Source: Amycolatopsis marina
Lineage (GTDB): Bacteria; Actinomycetota; Actinomycetes; Mycobacteriales; Pseudonocardiaceae
Direction: 5' to 3'
Assembly: GCF_900111885.1 (NCBI RefSeq)
Contig: NZ_FOKG01000018.1
Location: 62,001-126,000, forward strand
Length of the DNA stretch: 64,000 nt
Part shown: in pieces, positions 34,835 to 62,985 of the stretch
Layout of the letters: each line of letters opens with the position of its first letter
How positions within the stretch are numbered: position 1 is the first letter of the stretch
Made by a program: the position numbers and the translations under genes
Notes under the pieces: model-generated
What the model was told of the DNA's origin: nothing
Seen by the model: the letters and a program-made list of their open reading frames with translations, nothing else
Databases searched by the model: none

Positions 34835-35290
34835 TCAGAGATTCGGCGAACGTCCCTCGAACGGTGTGGAGAGCACGACCGTTGTCCTGGTGGACACCTT
34901 GGCGGCCTCGCGGATTCTGCGGAGCAGGTCCTCCAGACCCAACGGGGACGCCACACGGACGAGCAGGATGTACGACTCGTCCCCGGCCACCGAGTAGCAC
35001 GACTCGATCTCGGTGATGTGCTCCAGCCGCTGCGGATAGTCGTCCGGCGCGGCCGGGTCGTTGGGGGTGAGGGAGATCAGCGCGGTCAGCGGCAGGCCAA
35101 TCTGCTCCCCGTCCAGCCGGGCCGTGTAACCGCGGATGACACCGCGCTGCTCCAGCCGACGGACCCGCTGGTGCACCGCCGACACCGAAAGGCCGACCCG
35201 TTCGGCGAGATCGGTGAAACTGCGTCGTCCGTCGGCGGCCAGTTCCCTGGCGATCGCCTGATCGAGAGGTTCGAGAGGCCCGGCGGTCAT
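34835..35290 (-). CDS. Lrp/AsnC-family regulator
   Basis: A 151-residue Lrp-type protein: N-terminal helix-turn-helix (LDQAIARELAADGRRSFTDL, VGLSVSAVHQRVRRLEQRGVI) and C-terminal RAM domain (HITEIESCYSVAGDESYILLV). Lrp proteins sense amino acids. The ATG overlaps the stop of the upstream M24 peptidase gene by four bases (ATGA), suggesting shared control of dipeptide or proline-peptide use. Confidence 0.9.
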   Translation of the reverse strand: MTAGPLEPLDQAIARELAADGRRSFTDLAERVGLSVSAVHQRVRRLEQRGVIRGYTARLDGEQIGLPLTALISLTPNDPAAPDDYPQRLEHITEIESCYSVAGDESYILLVRVASPLGLEDLLRRIREAAKVSTRTTVVLSTPFEGRSPNL

Positions 35291-36432
35291 GCGTCGAGCA
35301 CAACGAGTTCGTGCGGCCGATTGTTCAGTGGCTCCACACCGTCGGCGGTGACGACGACGATGTCCTCGATGCGCGCGCCCCACCGACCGGCCTGGTAGAT
35401 CCCCGGCTCCACGCTGAAGGCCATGCCCTCCTCGACGGTCAGGTCGTTGCCGCCCATGATGTAGGGCTCCTCGTGCACGTCGAGGCCGATGCCGTGACCG
35501 GTCCGGTGAATGAAGTAGTCGCCGAAGCCCGCGTCGGCGATGACGTCCCTGGCCGCACCATCGATCTGCGCGGCCGTCACGCCGGGACGCACGATCTCCA
35601 CGGCGGCACGCTGGGCCGCGAGCAGCACGGCGTAGGTGTCCTCGACGTCGCTGTCCTTCGGTGCTCCGACGGCGTAGGTGCGGGTGGAGTCCGAGTTGTA
35701 GCCCTCGGGGATCGGGCCACCGATGTCCACCACCACGACATCACCGTGTTCGATCACACGGTCGGAGACGTCGTGGTGCGGGCTGGCCCCATTGGGCCCG
35801 GAGCCGACGATGATGAACTCGGCCTCCGTGTGTCCTTCCTCGACGATCGCGGCGGCGATGTCGGCGCCGACCTCGGCCTCGGTCCGCCCCGGACGCAGCC
35901 ACTCGCCCATGCGCGCGTGCACTCGGTCGATCGCCGCGCCTGCCTTGCGCAGTGCCGCGATCTCGGTGGCGTCCTTGCGCATGCGCAGTTCCCGTACCAC
36001 CGGGCCAGCCAGCGTCTGCTCGGCGGAACCGAGCGCGCCACGCAGCGCGAGGACGTGCAGGGCGACCATCGTGTCACTGACCGCCACCCGGCCAGGTGCG
36101 CCGAGGCGGTTCGCGACAATCCCGTACGGATCCTCGCCGTCGACCCAGGTGACGACCTCGATGCCGAGATCGTCCAACGGGACGTCGGCGTACCCGGGCG
36201 CCTCGAGCTTGGGCAGCACGAGCGCCGGTGTGCCGTCGTCTGCCGGAATGACCAGTGTGGTCAGGCGCTCGAACGAACCGCCTGCCTGACCGATCAGGTA
36301 GCGCAGATCGGATCCGGGCGCGATCAGCAGTGCGTCGGTGCCTGCGTTCGCGGCCGCACCACGGGCGCGGTCGAGGCGGGCGCGCAGGCTCGTGACGTCA
36401 GGGGCGGGAGTGTGAAGGGAGCGACGCGACAT
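35287..36432 (-). CDS. M24-family Xaa-Pro dipeptidase-like metallopeptidase
   Basis: A 381-residue creatinase/prolidase-fold protein: N-terminal domain to about 130, then a pita-bread domain with metal ligands in VVVVDIGGPIPEGYNSDSTRT (two Asp), FIHRTGHGIGLDVHEEPY (His), FSVEPGIY (Glu) and ARIEDIVVV (Glu). It should cleave X-Pro dipeptides. The ATG at 36432 begins at the end of the 103-bp tandem repeats; the longer frame through the repeats is not used. Coupled to an AsnC regulator. Confidence 0.9.
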   Translation of the reverse strand: MSRRSLHTPAPDVTSLRARLDRARGAAANAGTDALLIAPGSDLRYLIGQAGGSFERLTTLVIPADDGTPALVLPKLEAPGYADVPLDDLGIEVVTWVDGEDPYGIVANRLGAPGRVAVSDTMVALHVLALRGALGSAEQTLAGPVVRELRMRKDATEIAALRKAGAAIDRVHARMGEWLRPGRTEAEVGADIAAAIVEEGHTEAEFIIVGSGPNGASPHHDVSDRVIEHGDVVVVDIGGPIPEGYNSDSTRTYAVGAPKDSDVEDTYAVLLAAQRAAVEIVRPGVTAAQIDGAARDVIADAGFGDYFIHRTGHGIGLDVHEEPYIMGGNDLTVEEGMAFSVEPGIYQAGRWGARIEDIVVVTADGVEPLNNRPHELVVLDA

Positions 36433-36440
36433 GGCCCGAG

Positions 36441-36724
36441 CGTAGCCGGGTGCGCTTGGTGTGGGTCCGGGTGCCCAGGGTGAGCCGGCGCAGCGAGGTG
36501 CACGCGGAGCGCAGCCTGCGGAGCGAGGCCGATCGGCACTGCGCGTAGCCGGGTGCGCTTGGTGTGGGTCCGGGTGCCCACGGTGAGCCGGCGCAGCGAG
36601 GTGCACGCGGAGCGCAGCCTGCGGAGCGAGGCCGATCGGCACTGCGCGTAGCCGGGTGCGCTTGGTGTGGGTCCGGGTGCCCAGGGTGAGCCGGCGCAGC
36701 GAGGTGCACGCGGAGCGAGGCCGT
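36441..36724. repeat. 103-bp tandem repeat, about 2.8 copies
   Basis: Units begin at 36441, 36544 and 36647 with CGTAGCCGGGTGCGCTTGG. The first two differ at one base (CAGGG/CACGG); the third lacks about 14 bases near its end (between GGAGCG repeats). They fill the space between the CHAT gene stop and the M24 peptidase start and contain many GCGNAGCG-type motifs able to form small stems. No gene lies in the repeats. Confidence 0.95.
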
Positions 36725-36728
36725 GCCC

Positions 36729-39353
36729 TCATCCGCAGCCGAGGCACAGGAACGGACGGCGCAACGGATCGACCGCGTTCGCCTCGGCGAGCGCCAGCGC
36801 GGGCGAGACCCCCGCAGCGAGCCCGCTGTGCAGGGCGGACATCGTCTCGGCCGCGGCCTGGTCGCCCACCCTGGCCACCGCGCCGACGACTGTCTTCGAC
36901 CCGCTGGCCAGCAGGGTTCCGGCGAAGCCGAGGGCCTCCTCCCCCGGCCGGATGTGGCTCATGGCCAGCTCGCACGCGGCGAGCACGACGTGTTCCGGCG
37001 GCGCCCCAAGCCGAGTGGTCTCGTGCGCGAAAATGGGACCGTCCACGAGATCCAGCCGGGAGAAGAGCGCGTTGGCGGGCTCGTGGGTGCCGTGCGCGAC
37101 CAGATGCGCCAGCCTGGAGCCGTCGAGTGCGGCGAGTACGGCCGAACTGGTGGCCTGATCGCCGTCGACGACTCCGGCTCGGGGGTACACCGATCGCAGC
37201 TGCCGCACCTCACCGATCGCTCCGGGGACGCCGGGGCCGCCCACGAGCACGATCGGGCTCGCGCTGCCGGGTTCCTTGCGATCGGCTGCCGCCACCCAGG
37301 CGGTGGCCGAAGGAACCACCGAAACCGGCCGGGCACGCAGCGAGGGCAGAACCGACCACGGGAGCGAGTACAGCGTCCCGATGGGCACGACCACGAGTTC
37401 ACTGTCGCCCACCAGATCGAGCAACGGCCGGATCAACAACCGATCCAGCAGGTCGGCGCGCCTTCGCGCGGAGGCCGCCACCGCGTCGGCGAGCGGCTTC
37501 GGGAGGTGGTCCGGAGCAAGTGCGTCGAGGTCGGCGTGCAGTTGGCGTGCCGTTTCCTCGGTCTCGGCGAGGGAGCCAAGGCGCACGAGCCGAAAGCCGC
37601 CGTCGCGGACGACGACGGCGAACAGCGCACCCTCGTTGGCCGCGAGGCTCACCAGCACGCGGCTGCCGAGTCGCCGCGCGACCTCGTCCGGCGTGCACAC
37701 CGGCCTCGGTTTGCCCCACTTGCTGGTGTACCACCCGAGCCTGCTGGCTTCCCGTTGCAGCCAGGCGTACCGCTGTTCGAGCGCGGCCACCGGCTCGCCC
37801 TCGAGGCGTCGCTGCTGCACCGTGCGCTGGACGTGGCGCATCTCGTTGATGTGCTTGGCGAGCACCGGGTCCTCGACGGCGGGCAGCGGCTCGTAGCGGT
37901 ACACCTGTGCCCTGGTTCGTTCCTGCCACGCCAGCACCCGGCGAGCACCTGCCTGCCCGCGAGCCTTCTGCAGCAGCAGCCGGACCGCGAGACTGCCGAG
38001 TTCCTGGCCGTGCACCGCGGTACCGCAGAGCAGGTCGAGTCCGCCCATCCGATCACGGGCCCAACCCAGCTCCGTCAGTCCCGCGCGGGCCTGGGCCACC
38101 GCGGACCGATGCCGCCCAACGGCCACGGCCAGCTCCGCCTTGCACAGTCGTAGCAGCATCCGGTGGTCGACGGGCGTGGTCCGGCGCGGTCGCGGCACCT
38201 TCGCGAGCTGACCCTCCGCGGTGTCGAGCGCGCCACGGCGGATCAGTAACCGGACCGCCAGCAACCGGGCGACCGCCGACTCGTCCCGCAGTCCCAACGT
38301 TGCGAGCCGGTCACTGAGCCCATCGAGGTTGGTGACGAGCCGAGCAGGTGGCCGCGATGCCGCGTTGTCGAGGACCGCGAGTGTCTCCGCACGCAGCCGG
38401 GTGAGCATGGCGACCTCGGCCCAGGATTGGTGGCCACGACGGAGGAAGCTGCGGCGTGCATCGCGCGCCAGTTGCACGGCCATGTCGAGATCACCGAGCA
38501 ACATCGCGGCAGCGGCACGGGCTACCTGAGCCTCGGCCACGTCCTGCACCACACCGTTGCGCTGCAGTTCTGGCAGAGCCTCGTCCAGGTGCTTGGCAGC
38601 CTCTTCCGCCAATCCTGCGGTCAGCAGCGCCTTTGCCTGGTCCAGTTGAATCTTCGGCAGGGAACCGGTGCCCTCCTGCGCAAAGATGCGTGCGGCTTGT
38701 TCGTAGTGGTGCAACGCCTCCGGGACGTCCCCGACCAAGTGCGCCTGATCGCCAAGGTTGTGTCGGATTTTCGCTTCAAGCAGGCGATACCCGTGCTCCA
38801 CGGCTAGGGCAAGGCTTCTCTTGAGATCGGTTAGCGCAGCGTCAGGATCATTCATCAGGAGGTGGACGTGCGATCGATTCAGCAGATTGCGCGTCAACAA
38901 CAGCCGGTTCTCGGGCACACGCAGGTCCAACGTAGGCAGAATGTTGTCGAGTAGTTGACGGGCCTCAGGGAGCTGGCCGGCTCTGAACAGGACCACTGCA
39001 CGTTGCAAGCCCGTCACCGCCGCGAGTGAATTCCGTCGATCGCCGCGAGGTAACTGATTCAGTACGGATTCGACACGCGCCAGGTGCGCCAGTCCCGCCT
39101 TTGGCGATTCCGTCTCCGCGACCGCGGAGGCAAGGCTAATTGTGATCCGGGCGCGAAGCGCGAGAGCGTCAAGGTCACCACCAGGGAGATGATCGTCAAG
39201 GTGCCGCAGTGCGTGGGTCAGTAGCTGAACGGCTTCAGCTGGACGCTGATCAGAAGCGACGTTTGCAGCACGTTCGTACAGTTGGCGCGCTCGGGCAACG
39301 ATGGCGGGGTCAGGTCGTGAACCGGGCACAGGAACAATAGGAGCACACCTCAC
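36729..39353 (-). CDS. TPR-CHAT caspase-like protease
   Basis: An 874-residue protein. About 20-480 is all-helical with many TPR-like repeats (e.g. AVQLLTHALRHLDDHL, DVPEALHHYEQAARIFAQEG). The C-terminal CHAT domain (about 560-874) has the caspase-type pair: His754 in LVAHGTHEPANALFS and Cys794 in VVLAACELAMS. No signal peptide or membrane segment. TPR-CHAT proteases are activated by a sensor through the TPRs and cut specific proteins. GTG start at 39353 with GTGGA site, 23 bp after the small protein gene of the same operon. No CRISPR genes nearby. Confidence 0.88.
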   Translation of the reverse strand: MRCAPIVPVPGSRPDPAIVARARQLYERAANVASDQRPAEAVQLLTHALRHLDDHLPGGDLDALALRARITISLASAVAETESPKAGLAHLARVESVLNQLPRGDRRNSLAAVTGLQRAVVLFRAGQLPEARQLLDNILPTLDLRVPENRLLLTRNLLNRSHVHLLMNDPDAALTDLKRSLALAVEHGYRLLEAKIRHNLGDQAHLVGDVPEALHHYEQAARIFAQEGTGSLPKIQLDQAKALLTAGLAEEAAKHLDEALPELQRNGVVQDVAEAQVARAAAAMLLGDLDMAVQLARDARRSFLRRGHQSWAEVAMLTRLRAETLAVLDNAASRPPARLVTNLDGLSDRLATLGLRDESAVARLLAVRLLIRRGALDTAEGQLAKVPRPRRTTPVDHRMLLRLCKAELAVAVGRHRSAVAQARAGLTELGWARDRMGGLDLLCGTAVHGQELGSLAVRLLLQKARGQAGARRVLAWQERTRAQVYRYEPLPAVEDPVLAKHINEMRHVQRTVQQRRLEGEPVAALEQRYAWLQREASRLGWYTSKWGKPRPVCTPDEVARRLGSRVLVSLAANEGALFAVVVRDGGFRLVRLGSLAETEETARQLHADLDALAPDHLPKPLADAVAASARRRADLLDRLLIRPLLDLVGDSELVVVPIGTLYSLPWSVLPSLRARPVSVVPSATAWVAAADRKEPGSASPIVLVGGPGVPGAIGEVRQLRSVYPRAGVVDGDQATSSAVLAALDGSRLAHLVAHGTHEPANALFSRLDLVDGPIFAHETTRLGAPPEHVVLAACELAMSHIRPGEEALGFAGTLLASGSKTVVGAVARVGDQAAAETMSALHSGLAAGVSPALALAEANAVDPLRRPFLCLGCG

Positions 39354-39376
39354 AATTCCACGTGCCGTCTGGCCGC

Positions 39377-39853
39377 CTACAGAATCACGGTTGGCGTTAC
39401 GACGGTGCGACCTGACGTCGGGTCACCGACCGTCACGACGATCTGAGTCGTCCCTCTCGGAACCTGATCGAGAACGAAACGGCCGCCTTCATCCGCGACC
39501 GTGCGGGACGAGCCGTGCTCCGAGACTCGGACCTCCACGCCGAACTCCCCCGCCGGGACGAGCCAGCCGTCGATCCGATGGTGCTTCCCGACCCGGGTCA
39601 GGTTGATCATCACCGTCAGATCGCTGACGGTGAAGGTGATCGTGCCCTGGTCGGTTCCACGCACACCGCTCAGCGCATCGGCACGCTCCCAGCGAGCGAC
39701 CTCCACGTCCAGGTTCTCCAACGCCATGGCGAACTGGACGCGTTCGACCAGGCCGTCGGGAACCGGGTCCACGCTGTCGAGCAGCCGGTCCAGATCGTCG
39801 AGCAGCGTCTCGTCGTCAGGAAACGCACTGCGCCCGGGCGAGGTCTCGTTCAT
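39377..39853 (-). CDS. Small protein between sigma factor and CHAT protease
   Basis: A 158-residue soluble protein. The N half is acidic and helical (DDETLLDDLDRLLDSVDPV, LVERVQFAMALENLDVEVAR); the C half has beta strands like a carboxypeptidase-regulatory or Ig-like domain (RVGKHHRIDGWLVPAG, FVLDQVPRGTTQIVVTVG). No membrane segment. Its ATG overlaps the sigma stop (ATGA), and the CHAT gene follows 23 bp later. By position it is a candidate sigma inhibitor or protease substrate; the sequence itself does not prove either. Confidence 0.75.
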   Translation of the reverse strand: MNETSPGRSAFPDDETLLDDLDRLLDSVDPVPDGLVERVQFAMALENLDVEVARWERADALSGVRGTDQGTITFTVSDLTVMINLTRVGKHHRIDGWLVPAGEFGVEVRVSEHGSSRTVADEGGRFVLDQVPRGTTQIVVTVGDPTSGRTVVTPTVIL

Positions 39854-40554
39854 GCTGTGCCCCCTTCGCGTTCGAGGAGGCCGCGAATCATGATCAGGCA
39901 GCGTCCACGTGTCGGTCCGATGCTGCCGTGGGGCATGCGCAGCGCTTGGGCGACGAGGCGGTACTCGGTGCGCCCGGCGAGGACGGTCAGCTTGAGCAGC
40001 TCCTGGCAGCGCTGCGGAAGTTTGGTGAAGGCGGCCCAGAGCCTGCGGTCCCGGTCCGACCTCAGTGCCTCCACGTCAGGCGACGGCTGATCGGAGAGCA
40101 TGTTCTCGGCGAGTTCGTCCGTGAGTGGTACCGGTGGGGCCTTGCGGCCGTGCGCGCGCTGTGCCTCGCGCCGGGCCGTCGTGATCAACCATGCGGCCAG
40201 AGCGCGAGGATCGTTGAGCTGCTGCAGGTGGCTGAACAGCGCCAGCCACACCGTCTGAACCACGTCCTCGGCGGTGTGCCGGTCCAGTCCGTTACTGCGC
40301 GCGACATGCCACAGCAATGGGCTCAGCTCGGCCACGAGACGGTTCATCGCCGCGCGGTCGCCCGCACGTGCGGCGTGCAGGCATGCCGCATACAGCTCGT
40401 TACCCTGCAGTCCCTCCCAGGGAGGGTCTGCTTCCACTGTCTGCGCATCGGCCACCGTATCTGCCTCACTTCGGTCGACTGCTGTTGATGTCAGCGGTCG
40501 CAGTATCCCGGTCGTATCGCGGTCAGTGACCACCAAAAGGCAACCTGAAGGCAT
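39850..40554 (-). CDS. ECF-type sigma factor of the CHAT module
   Basis: A 234-residue ECF sigma factor. Region 2 is at about 60-130 (MNRLVAELSPLLWHVARSNG, AEDVVQTVWLALFSHL, AAWLITTARREAQRA) and region 4 at about 165-225 (LPQRCQELLKLTVLAGRTEY, then VAQALRMPHGSIGPTRGRCL). The first 50 residues are low-complexity and the start is uncertain; ATG at 40554 is used, a GTG seven codons in is an alternative. It is overlapped by the next gene and leads the operon, so it may drive it. Confidence 0.87.
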   Translation of the reverse strand: MPSGCLLVVTDRDTTGILRPLTSTAVDRSEADTVADAQTVEADPPWEGLQGNELYAACLHAARAGDRAAMNRLVAELSPLLWHVARSNGLDRHTAEDVVQTVWLALFSHLQQLNDPRALAAWLITTARREAQRAHGRKAPPVPLTDELAENMLSDQPSPDVEALRSDRDRRLWAAFTKLPQRCQELLKLTVLAGRTEYRLVAQALRMPHGSIGPTRGRCLIMIRGLLEREGGTA

Positions 40555-40595
40555 CTCTCACTCGTTCGGAGCAGTAGTTGTATTTGATCCGGGGT

Positions 40596-40631
40596 ACCGG
40601 CCGGTGCTCGACAGTGTCGGCACCGGCCGGT
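40596..40631. promoter_or_regulatory. Hairpin upstream of the sigma factor gene
   Basis: Arms ACCGGCCGGTGC and GCACCGGCCGGT enclose an inner CGAC/GTCG stem. It lies 42-77 bases ahead of the sigma start on the minus strand and could shape the leader or act as operator. The surrounding 40555-40877 shows no supported gene. Confidence 0.6.
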
Positions 40632-40877
40632 CGCCCCACCCACCCCAGGCGGATCCTCCCCCGGACCCGCCCGACCCCCTTCGGGGTGGGCCGGCCTCAC
40701 GTGGCGATGTCTGCCGGCGGTCACCCTGCCCCCACGGCATTCGCCGACCCCGCGGTGCCGCAGGCCGTTCGACAGCCTTCGGGTCAAGCATCCGAGGCTC
40801 TCAGTGCGAAGTCGGTCCTCCCCGGCCCGATCCCGCACACCTGAGGCACCGCGTTCTCCATGTGAGCCCGTCTTGGC

Positions 40878-40916
40878 GGTGGTGTCCGGTAGCCCCCTCG
40901 GCTACCGGACACCACC
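40878..40916 (-). terminator. 17-bp hairpin downstream of the 52-aa gene
   Basis: GGTGGTGTCCGGTAGCC and its exact complement at 40900-40916 enclose a five-base loop. It follows the 40944-41102 gene by 27 bases and probably ends its transcript before the sigma operon. Confidence 0.8.
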
Positions 40917-40943
40917 ATCCCCCAGTGACCTGTGCTGTCCAGA

Positions 40944-41102
40944 TCAGTTGGCTGGCGGGCTGTTCGGGTCCCAGTTACCCAACGGCGTAGGCGACTTGGT
41001 CGGCGGTGTGGTCGGGGTCTTCGAGCCGTCCCCTTCCAACTCGGTGTCCGAGGCAGTCTGCTCCACGGAGGAAGCGGTCGCGTCTGTGTCCTTTGTGCTC
41101 AT
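40944..41102 (-). CDS. 52-residue Thr/Pro-rich small protein near the CHAT module
   Basis: ATG at 41102 follows GAGGAGAAC at ideal spacing. The protein is MSTKDTDATASSVEQTASD, then acidic residues, TPTTPPTKSPTPLGNWDPNSPPAN at the end split by Pro and Thr. It is unstructured-looking, with no signal peptide or Cys. It is transcribed as the sigma and CHAT operon but separated by a strong hairpin. It may be a substrate, ligand or exported-peptide precursor; none of this is shown by sequence. Confidence 0.6.
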   Translation of the reverse strand: MSTKDTDATASSVEQTASDTELEGDGSKTPTTPPTKSPTPLGNWDPNSPPAN

Positions 41103-41268
41103 TGTTGGTTCTCCTCAACCGCGTCTGGCCCTGGCATCGGACCACTGTCTTCGCGGAATAGGACGCAGCAAGGGCACCGCCAGATACAGAGATCCCCAAA
41201 CTTTTTTGAAGAAGTTCGCGTAGCCGAGGCCCAACCATCCATTCGGCGCAATAGACGACCTAGGAAAT

Positions 41269-61482: not shown

Positions 61483-62985
61483 CTAGTCGGACCCGGTCAA
61501 CGCCTCCACGAGTTCCTCTGCGGTCGCCGAGTCGTCCAGCAGCTTTCCCACGTGCGCCTTCGTGCCACGCAGCGGCTCCAGTGTGGGAATCCGCACCAAC
61601 GACTCCCGTCCGACATCGAAGATCACCGAATCCCAGGAGGCCGCGGCGATCGAGGTCGCGTACTTTTCCAGCGTCCTGCCGCGGAAGTACGCCCGGGTGT
61701 CCGACGGCGGCGTGGTCACAGCCGCACGCACCTCCTCCTCGGTGACCAGGCGTTTCATCGAGCCCCGCGTCACCAGCCGGTTGTACAGCCCCTTGTCCAG
61801 CCGCACGTCCGAGTACTGCAGGTCCACCAGGTGCAACCGCGGCGCCGCCCAGCCGAGCTGGTCCCGGCCCCGGTACCCCTCGAGCAACCGCAGCTTCGCG
61901 GGCCAGTCCAGGCGGTCGGCACACTCCGCCGGATCCCGCGCGAGCGCGTCCAGCACCTCACCCCACACCCGCAGCACGTCCTTGGCGACCGTGTCACCGC
62001 CGTGCTTGTCCAGGTGGGCCGCCGCCATCTCGTGATAGGCGAACTGCAGGTCCAGCCCGGTGAACTTCCGGCCGTTGGCGAGTTCGACCTTCACCTTCAA
62101 GGTGGGATCGTGGCTGATCTGGTGCACGGCCCGCACCGGCTCGTCCAGCTTGAGATCGTCGAACCGCACCCCGGCCTCGATCATGTCGAGCACCAGCGCC
62201 GTCGTCCCGACCTTCAGGTACGTCGAGTACTCGGCGAGATTGGCGTCCCCGATGATGACGTGCAGCCTGCGGTACTTGTCCGCATCAGCGTGCGGCTCGT
62301 CCCTGGTGTTGATGATCCCGCGCTTGAGCGTCGTCTCCAGCCCGACCTCGACCTCGATGTAGTCCGAGCGCTGGGACAACTGGAACCCCGCGGTCTCACC
62401 CTGCGGACCGATACCGACCCGGCCCGACCCCGTCATCACCTGGCGCGACGCGAAGAACGGCGTCAACCCGCCGATCACCGCGGTGAACGGCGTCGACCTG
62501 GCCATCAGGTAGTTCTCGTGGGTGCCGTAGCTCGCACCCTTACCGTCCACGTTGTTCTTGTACAGCTGCAGTGGCGGCTGCCCCGGCACGGTGGCGGCCT
62601 TGATCGCCGCCTCCTCCATCACCCGTTCCCCGGCCTTGTCCCAGATCACCGCGTCCCGCGCGTTGGTCACCTCGGGAGCGGAATACTCGGGATGGGCGTG
62701 GTCCACGTAGAGCCGCGCGCCGTTGGTGAGGATGACGTTGGCCGCGCCCAGATCCTCGACATCCGGGTCCGGCCCCTGGTTGCCGGGGCCCGCCAGATCG
62801 AAGCCACGCGCGTCCCGCAGGGGCGACTCCACCTCGTAGTCCCAGCGCGCCCTGCGCGCCCGCGGTATGTCCGCCGCCGCCGCGTAGGCCAGCACCACCT
62901 GAGTGGAGGTCAGTACCGGGTTCGCAGTCGCGTCTCCCGGCACCGCGATGCCGTACTCGACCTCGGTTCCCATGATCCGCCGCAT
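61483..62985 (-). CDS. dop: Pup deamidase/depupylase Dop
   Basis: A 500-residue PafA paralogue. Start [19 protein letters not shown], an insertion at about 40-80 (the Dop loop, [20 protein letters not shown]) absent in Paf[15 protein letters not shown] with Asp95, the deamidase nucleophile position known from Mycobacterium, and [20 protein letters not shown]. It converts Pup Gln to Glu and also removes Pup. First gene of the locus in transcription order. Confidence 0.96.

Follow-up and report, generated by a model that had tools for sequence, protein, structure and literature searches.

Can a caspase-fold protease control a sigma factor outside a clustered regularly interspaced short palindromic repeats (CRISPR) system? 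The question is raised by a locus of Amycolatopsis marina in the 64,000-nt stretch of contig NZ_FOKG01000018.1 that we analysed (positions 62,001 to 126,000 of the forward strand; hereafter the window). A sequence-only reading had proposed that three tightly packed genes, encoding an extracytoplasmic function (ECF) sigma factor, a 158-aa small protein and an 874-aa TPR-CHAT protease, form a stand-alone proteolytic sigma switch. The trio is indeed present, all on the minus strand, and the small-protein gene overlaps the sigma stop by four bases (39853 versus 39850), as had been noted. At 41102, the right edge drawn at that time, begins a fourth gene that was left undescribed and encodes a 52-aa peptide, and the transcription unit seems to reach upstream to a promoter-like motif at 41158–41188. 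The order in the direction of transcription is promoter-like motif, peptide gene, hairpin, ECF sigma, small protein, TPR-CHAT (Table 1). Conserved synteny, co-occurrence and indirect signs of association between sigma and the small protein favour the switch; the defence role attached to it does not gain support. We conclude that the small protein probably acts as a dedicated anti-sigma factor, relieved by the protease TPR-CHAT through a cleavage that we infer. That the whole mechanism operates as proposed, as a self-contained and CRISPR-free switch, we regard as an even prospect.

Profile searches assign both flanking proteins. The sigma factor matches TIGR02937 over residues 69–224 (71.3 bits, cut-off 42.9) and Sigma70_r2 (PF04542; 45.1 bits, cut-off 24, E = 8.6e-12). 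Its translation probably starts at the internal GTG at 40455, giving 201 aa, because relatives, compared by eye, start at the equivalent GTG after a conserved GGCAGATACG. The protease contains a CHAT domain (PF12770; 93.4 bits, cut-off 24, E = 2.2e-26), the sole match to this family reported across the 7.0-Mb genome, and a TPR part (TPR_12, E = 3.8e-15). The His754/Cys794 pair singled out earlier holds up: both residues occur in each of the 138 sequences whose alignment spans the pair (147 sequences including that of the window, nine of them truncated there; CHAT proteins below 200 bits were left out). Asp831, 37 residues past Cys794, is kept in 132 of the 138.

The gene arrangement is conserved and the trio widespread among actinobacteria. 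An initial search of 60 related genomes detected the small protein in 44 of them, and among 20 stretches around these matches 18 contain sigma and 18 contain CHAT. A profile built from 17 small-protein sequences (A1) matched 81 of the 246 genomes surveyed in the class, representing 41 of 104 genera. We then compared the best match of each of the 80 other genomes with up to about 7.5 kb on either side, some stretches ending early at contig ends. In 78 of these 80 loci the small protein is immediately preceded by sigma on the same strand, with less than 700 bp between the aligned parts, and in 56 a CHAT of the same family lies inside the stretch; 17 of the 24 loci without CHAT have at least 6 kb on each side. 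A scan of named genomes that started from sigma only (A5, best 80 of 444) gave a similar layout: the small protein is present in 77 of 80 loci, adjacent to sigma in 76, and CHAT in 64. Named loci carrying all three genes include Solirubrobacter, Nitriliruptorales and Acidimicrobiales, which we take to lie outside the class. The locus sets overlap (for example L171/L041, L173/L098, L197/L090, L219/L122 and L242/L022), and the 147 CHAT and 198 small-protein rows are not all independent. Sigma also occurs without its partner: in Geodermatophilus sabuli (L231, the sole Geodermatophilus locus retrieved) sigma is present and the small protein is not. A further sigma of the same family without the small protein lies near a protein that combines caspase C14 and EAL domains (L220:10390–12510), and two loci (L027, L028) carry a tandem pair of CHAT genes behind the sigma–small protein pair, with two subtilase matches upstream.

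Small protein and protease also occur together when position is disregarded. In the same 246 genomes a TPR-CHAT profile (A7, E = 1e-60) matched 82 genomes from 42 of 104 genera; 80 genomes contain both families and 163 neither (Fisher p = 2e-61, kinship ignored). One genome (G143) matches the small protein alone and two (G141, G187) match CHAT alone. In G187, sigma and the small protein do adjoin CHAT and were overlooked by the small-protein profile; the CHAT of G141 sits on an 18-kb contig piece with a subtilase, without sigma or the small protein. Twelve genomes of one genus have no CHAT near the sigma–small protein pair and encode it elsewhere (11 at full length, one in two contig pieces), which argues that CHAT is able to act in trans; even so, it is seldom missing. 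Conserved synteny, one of three things by which the sequence-only reading wished its proposal to be judged, is established by these surveys. Chance adjacency of three unrelated genes is contradicted by synteny, co-occurrence and the gene fusions described below, and is hardly credible.

A second protease recurs at these loci. Subtilase lies inside 48 of 80 stretches of the class survey and 38 of 80 of the sigma scan; a Pfam check of eight neighbours returned Peptidase_S8 in seven and ribosomal protein L1 in the eighth. Alongside the distant CHAT genes a subtilase-like frame is found in all ten loci examined. Neither CHAT nor subtilase is present in 22 of the 80 class-survey loci. These counts would suit an arrangement in which subtilase releases sigma and CHAT acts as a downstream effector, and the accessible text of a review of the ECF54 group, discussed below, also names subtilase (PMC8999054). 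We consider this very unlikely, since CHAT is near-obligate and a search limited to the window and the 20 Amycolatopsis orthologue stretches gave no subtilase match in the window or in any of the 20. Those 20 stretches all keep the sigma–small protein pair, and 13 contain CHAT.

What, then, is the small protein? It consists of N-terminal helices (residues 14–28 and 35–46), a poorly ordered linker (58–67) and a C-terminal beta-sandwich. Its best named match among close relatives, in A. anabasis, reaches 77%, and NCBI labels many relatives 'carboxypeptidase regulatory-like domain-containing protein'. The Pfam scan of the window protein returned a weak CarboxypepD_reg match alone, below the cut-off (E = 0.018); there was no NCBIfam match and no credible PDB sequence match, presence of Csx30 entries in these sets being unchecked. 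Matches to two scaffoldin chains of the PDB (E = 0.91 and 1.2) were taken as chance, and many Ig/FN3-like sandwiches resemble the beta domain, none of which could be singled out as its specific relative. No membrane segment is evident by eye (no predictor was run).

Pointers to its partner come from nature's own constructs: ten proteins are fusions of sigma with the small protein. In the predicted structure of one of them the sigma part adopts a closed form, and the best structural matches are sigmas bound by anti-sigma factors. The association between sigma and the small protein that had been expected is supported by both observations, each of which is indirect. Alternatively, the small protein may be a positive partner of sigma or its sensor subunit, comparable to the regulatory extension of ECF41/ECF42, with the protease acting on sigma itself or clearing spent complexes. 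The structural matches speak against a positive role, as does the finding that sigma and the small protein occupy separate frames in 95 of 96 loci having both, and we consider it unlikely.

These observations fit the following mechanism, in which the small protein acts as the anti-sigma factor. Its N-terminal helices would hold sigma in the closed form. A signal sensed through the TPR part would activate the CHAT protease, which would then cut the small protein. The cut would most likely fall in the poorly ordered linker, at Arg65 or close to it; this residue is near-invariant and is our candidate for the cut site. In separase, an acidic residue at a place similar to that of Asp831 forms an arginine pocket, making an arginine cut site plausible. 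Cleavage would release sigma, which would fire mainly or only its own promoter at 41158–41188. Firing would raise expression of the operon together with whatever cargo stands between promoter and sigma, which is the peptide in this operon and, in relatives, a papain-type protease with a chagasin-type inhibitor and a repeat peptide.

The promoter-like motif, TGTATCTGG-N12-TGCGTCCTAT, is nearly unique in each genome. Upstream of the operon it is the sole exact match of a looser pattern in the 7.0-Mb genome, in which one site has one mismatch and four have two; the reversed control gave 1. A pattern for the genus has exactly one match in 26 of 36 Amycolatopsis genomes and none in ten (reversed, 0). 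All 26 sites lie upstream of the sigma–small protein locus, 958–3096 bp before the small protein and on the same strand, and several of the remaining ten genomes carry the motif with one or two mismatches. The promoter patterns, like the pattern for the hairpin core used below, were derived from the very loci later counted, so that the informative part is the lack of occurrences elsewhere. Beyond the genus, TGTATC is the top enriched hexamer in the 600 bp before sigma (found in 43 of 151 loci, where a first-order model predicts 3.5; these loci span many families, Amycolatopsis included). In the 400 bp ahead of sigma, GTATC[AT]G is present on the sense strand of 50 of 155 loci and on the antisense strand of 14 of 155. 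The corresponding counts are 3 of 119 and 12 of 119 upstream of CHAT and 8 of 85 and 5 of 85 upstream of subtilase, and alignment within one genus found no motif shared with CHAT and subtilase genes that stand apart from sigma. The regulon therefore seems confined to the sigma operon: judged from these motifs, sigma appears to be autoregulated with a very small regulon, comprising little beyond its own operon.

Immediately behind the motif lies the unannotated gene of the 52-aa peptide, which has an acidic, Thr-rich start, a Pro-rich middle and the end ...GNWDPNSPPAN. A protein database search, which requires shared 5-residue words, returned no relative but the peptide itself; relatives came to light by reading the sequence behind the promoter motif. 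Of 44 loci, among which at least nine genomes are counted twice, 29 have a similar short open reading frame that starts 27–83 bp past the motif and ends like GNWDPN or GNHEP. Related pairs show a median nonsynonymous divergence (dN) of 0.033 versus a synonymous divergence (dS) of 0.237 (31 pairs, partly duplicate; only equal-length peptides more than 70% identical were compared, with L158 and L163 excluded). None of the 20 Amycolatopsis orthologues has lost the motif, sigma or the small protein. The peptide is found in 13 of 13 orthologues with an adjacent CHAT and in 0 of 7 without (p = 1.3e-5, kinship ignored), and thus seems, from its distribution, to be tied to the protease. Six of the seven orthologues that lack both (L151–L153, L165, L166, L169, L170) form one clade by the look of the sequence, so perhaps only two losses occurred.

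In other lineages the cargo differs, and promoter and switch stay constant. The place of the peptide is taken in A. anabasis (L022), in L023 and in A. suaedae (L227) by a papain-family protease, a repeat-bearing form of the peptide and a chagasin inhibitor (family I42), after which sigma, the small protein and CHAT follow; papain and chagasin were checked against Pfam in L022 and L227. By eye the repeat peptide has seven copies in L022, three in L023 and four in L227, and its C-terminal domain looks like the end of the papain protein. Papain and chagasin also stand upstream of the sigma–small protein pair in Labedaea (L206). A papain-type protease and its presumed chagasin inhibitor are thus found in one cargo set. 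In a distant relative, a 50-aa open reading frame with GGKPMPA repeats lies between the small protein and CHAT (L031:2131–2283, minus strand) and is possibly an analogous peptide cargo.

The protease-linked cargo invites a different division of labour, in which the small protein serves mainly as inhibitor, substrate or adaptor of CHAT and sigma merely regulates a cell-death or defence device, or in which the peptide is the CHAT substrate. Such a device would fit the finding that small protein and CHAT almost always occur in the same genomes, and also the subtilase carried by relatives, papain with chagasin in some of them, and the strict pairing of peptide and adjacent CHAT. Yet the small protein remains beside sigma where CHAT sits elsewhere and is found fused to sigma. 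Sigma and the small protein persist in the seven loci that lack both CHAT and peptide, and the link between peptide and CHAT may go back to as few as two losses. We consider this division of labour unlikely and retain the anti-sigma assignment.

Between peptide and sigma the leader RNA is predicted to fold into a hairpin (z = -6.2 for 40855–40945). In 23 sequences, doubly changed cells number 36 over the 17 pairs, versus 14.2 in shuffles (0 of 500 shuffles as high), and pairing reaches 90.8%; the number of pairs with a double change, 7, is not above that of shuffles (6.3). Of 36 Amycolatopsis genomes, 33 carry the exact core at the operon. Five exact copies occur elsewhere (G022:C97:1093, G005:C2:2627875, G024:C1:4873327, and G026:C4:4741046 and 5449724). 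Four Rfam matches all fell far below gathering scores and assign the hairpin to no known RNA family. Several relatives have more GC-rich hairpins with GGGGAG-type loops after the leader hairpin, even where the peptide gene is missing (L152, L166).

Table 1. Positions of the operon elements in the window and of variable cargo in related loci
Feature	Position	Strand	Remark
Promoter-like motif TGTATCTGG-N12-TGCGTCCTAT	41158-41188	-	Putative autoregulatory promoter of sigma
52-aa peptide gene	41102-40944	-	GAGGAGA resembles a ribosome-binding site; absent from the sequence-only reading
Leader RNA hairpin, 17 pairs	40878-40916	-	Invariant CGAGGGGG in and beside the loop
ECF sigma factor	Frame 40554-39850 (234 aa); probable start GTG 40455 (201 aa)	-	
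Small protein, 158 aa	39853-39377	-	Candidate anti-sigma factor
TPR-CHAT protease, 874 aa	39353-36729	-	His754, Cys794, Asp831
Papain/chagasin cargo regions	L022:8232-9380, L227:5690-7813, L206:5761-7800		Repeat peptide in L022 and L227

On the other side of the operon, just 3' of the CHAT gene, lies a tandem repeat (36440–36717, period 103, 2.7 copies, 98% matches), and downstream of CHAT, on the same strand, a gene for a peptidase of family M24 (Xaa-Pro type; 35287–36432).

How does this operon relate to systems already described? In type III-E CRISPR, Csx29 cuts Csx30, an inhibitor of CASP-sigma (PMC10028731). As far as the accessible text of that paper describes them, the roles correspond: a TPR-CHAT protease, a two-domain sigma inhibitor, an ECF sigma and sigma sites in the own locus. 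In contrast, the inhibitor here has 158 aa and a C-terminal beta-sandwich, whereas Csx30 comprises at least 565 aa. Membership of the Craspase system itself was rejected, the protease scoring 16.5 bits with the Csx29 model NF041237 against a cut-off of 300. The earlier statement that no Cas genes are present stands for Cas1 (PF01867), the one cas family searched: it is missing from the genome and matches in 9 of 14 control genomes.

Proteolysis of anti-sigma factors has other precedents. The RseA/DegS and RsiW anti-sigmas are membrane proteins. The window operon shares the logic of anti-sigma proteolysis with these systems, which are named in the accessible text of PMC10028731, and differs in that its protease is a CHAT protein and its small protein has no membrane segment evident by eye. 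EACC2-caspase systems, too, place a caspase-fold protease near an ECF sigma and a TPR protein; there, according to the part of the source available, the TPR protein is separate and carries DUF1822 (PMC8195603). Domains of these systems were not found in our Pfam scan, Pfam coverage of EACC and TRADD-N being unchecked. The suggestion of stress or phage defence is unsupported: PADLOC, searched up to E = 1, matched neither the protease nor sigma nor the peptide, and a HORMA match of the small protein (E = 0.012) was taken as chance.

The closest published description is that of ECF54, for which proteolytic control was proposed from CHAT, subtilase and carboxypeptidase neighbours and which, according to the accessible text of the review, is regulated in this way with no anti-sigma factor involved (PMC8999054). 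Relatives of the window operon likewise show CHAT, subtilase and a carboxypeptidase-regulatory-like protein. The window itself has CHAT and the below-cut-off CarboxypepD_reg match, without subtilase. Here, however, the neighbour with the carboxypeptidase-type name is small and looks like an anti-sigma factor, and from the available description we infer that the 'carboxypeptidase' of ECF54 is the small-protein family. The idea of proteolytic sigma control is thus partly in print already. New here are the candidate anti-sigma factor, the once-per-genome promoter motif, the peptide gene, the covarying hairpin and the variable cargo. The literature searched, with subscription journals largely outside its reach, contained no report of the candidate anti-sigma factor, promoter, peptide or hairpin.

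A bolder version of the switch would make the operon a CRISPR-free counterpart of Craspase: a ligand-gated TPR-CHAT protease, a cut at the near-invariant arginine, one promoter per genome and fast-changing cargo. The ligand of CHAT would possibly be the structured leader RNA or the peptide of the own operon, and the cargo would be short GN[WH][DE]P peptides, either alone or as tandem repeats accompanied by the papain-type protease and chagasin-type inhibitor. We rate this version distinctly unlikely. If true, it would describe a general actinobacterial proteolytic alarm and mean that circuits of TPR-CHAT, anti-sigma and sigma arise repeatedly.

Actinobacteria are a phylum with many antibiotic producers. 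If the family is ECF54, our analysis supplies candidates for its anti-sigma factor, promoter and output, none of which is described in the accessible text of the review (PMC8999054). Should the proposed switch prove true, control of sigma factors by caspase-fold proteases would be a widespread actinobacterial signalling device and not a peculiarity of CRISPR.

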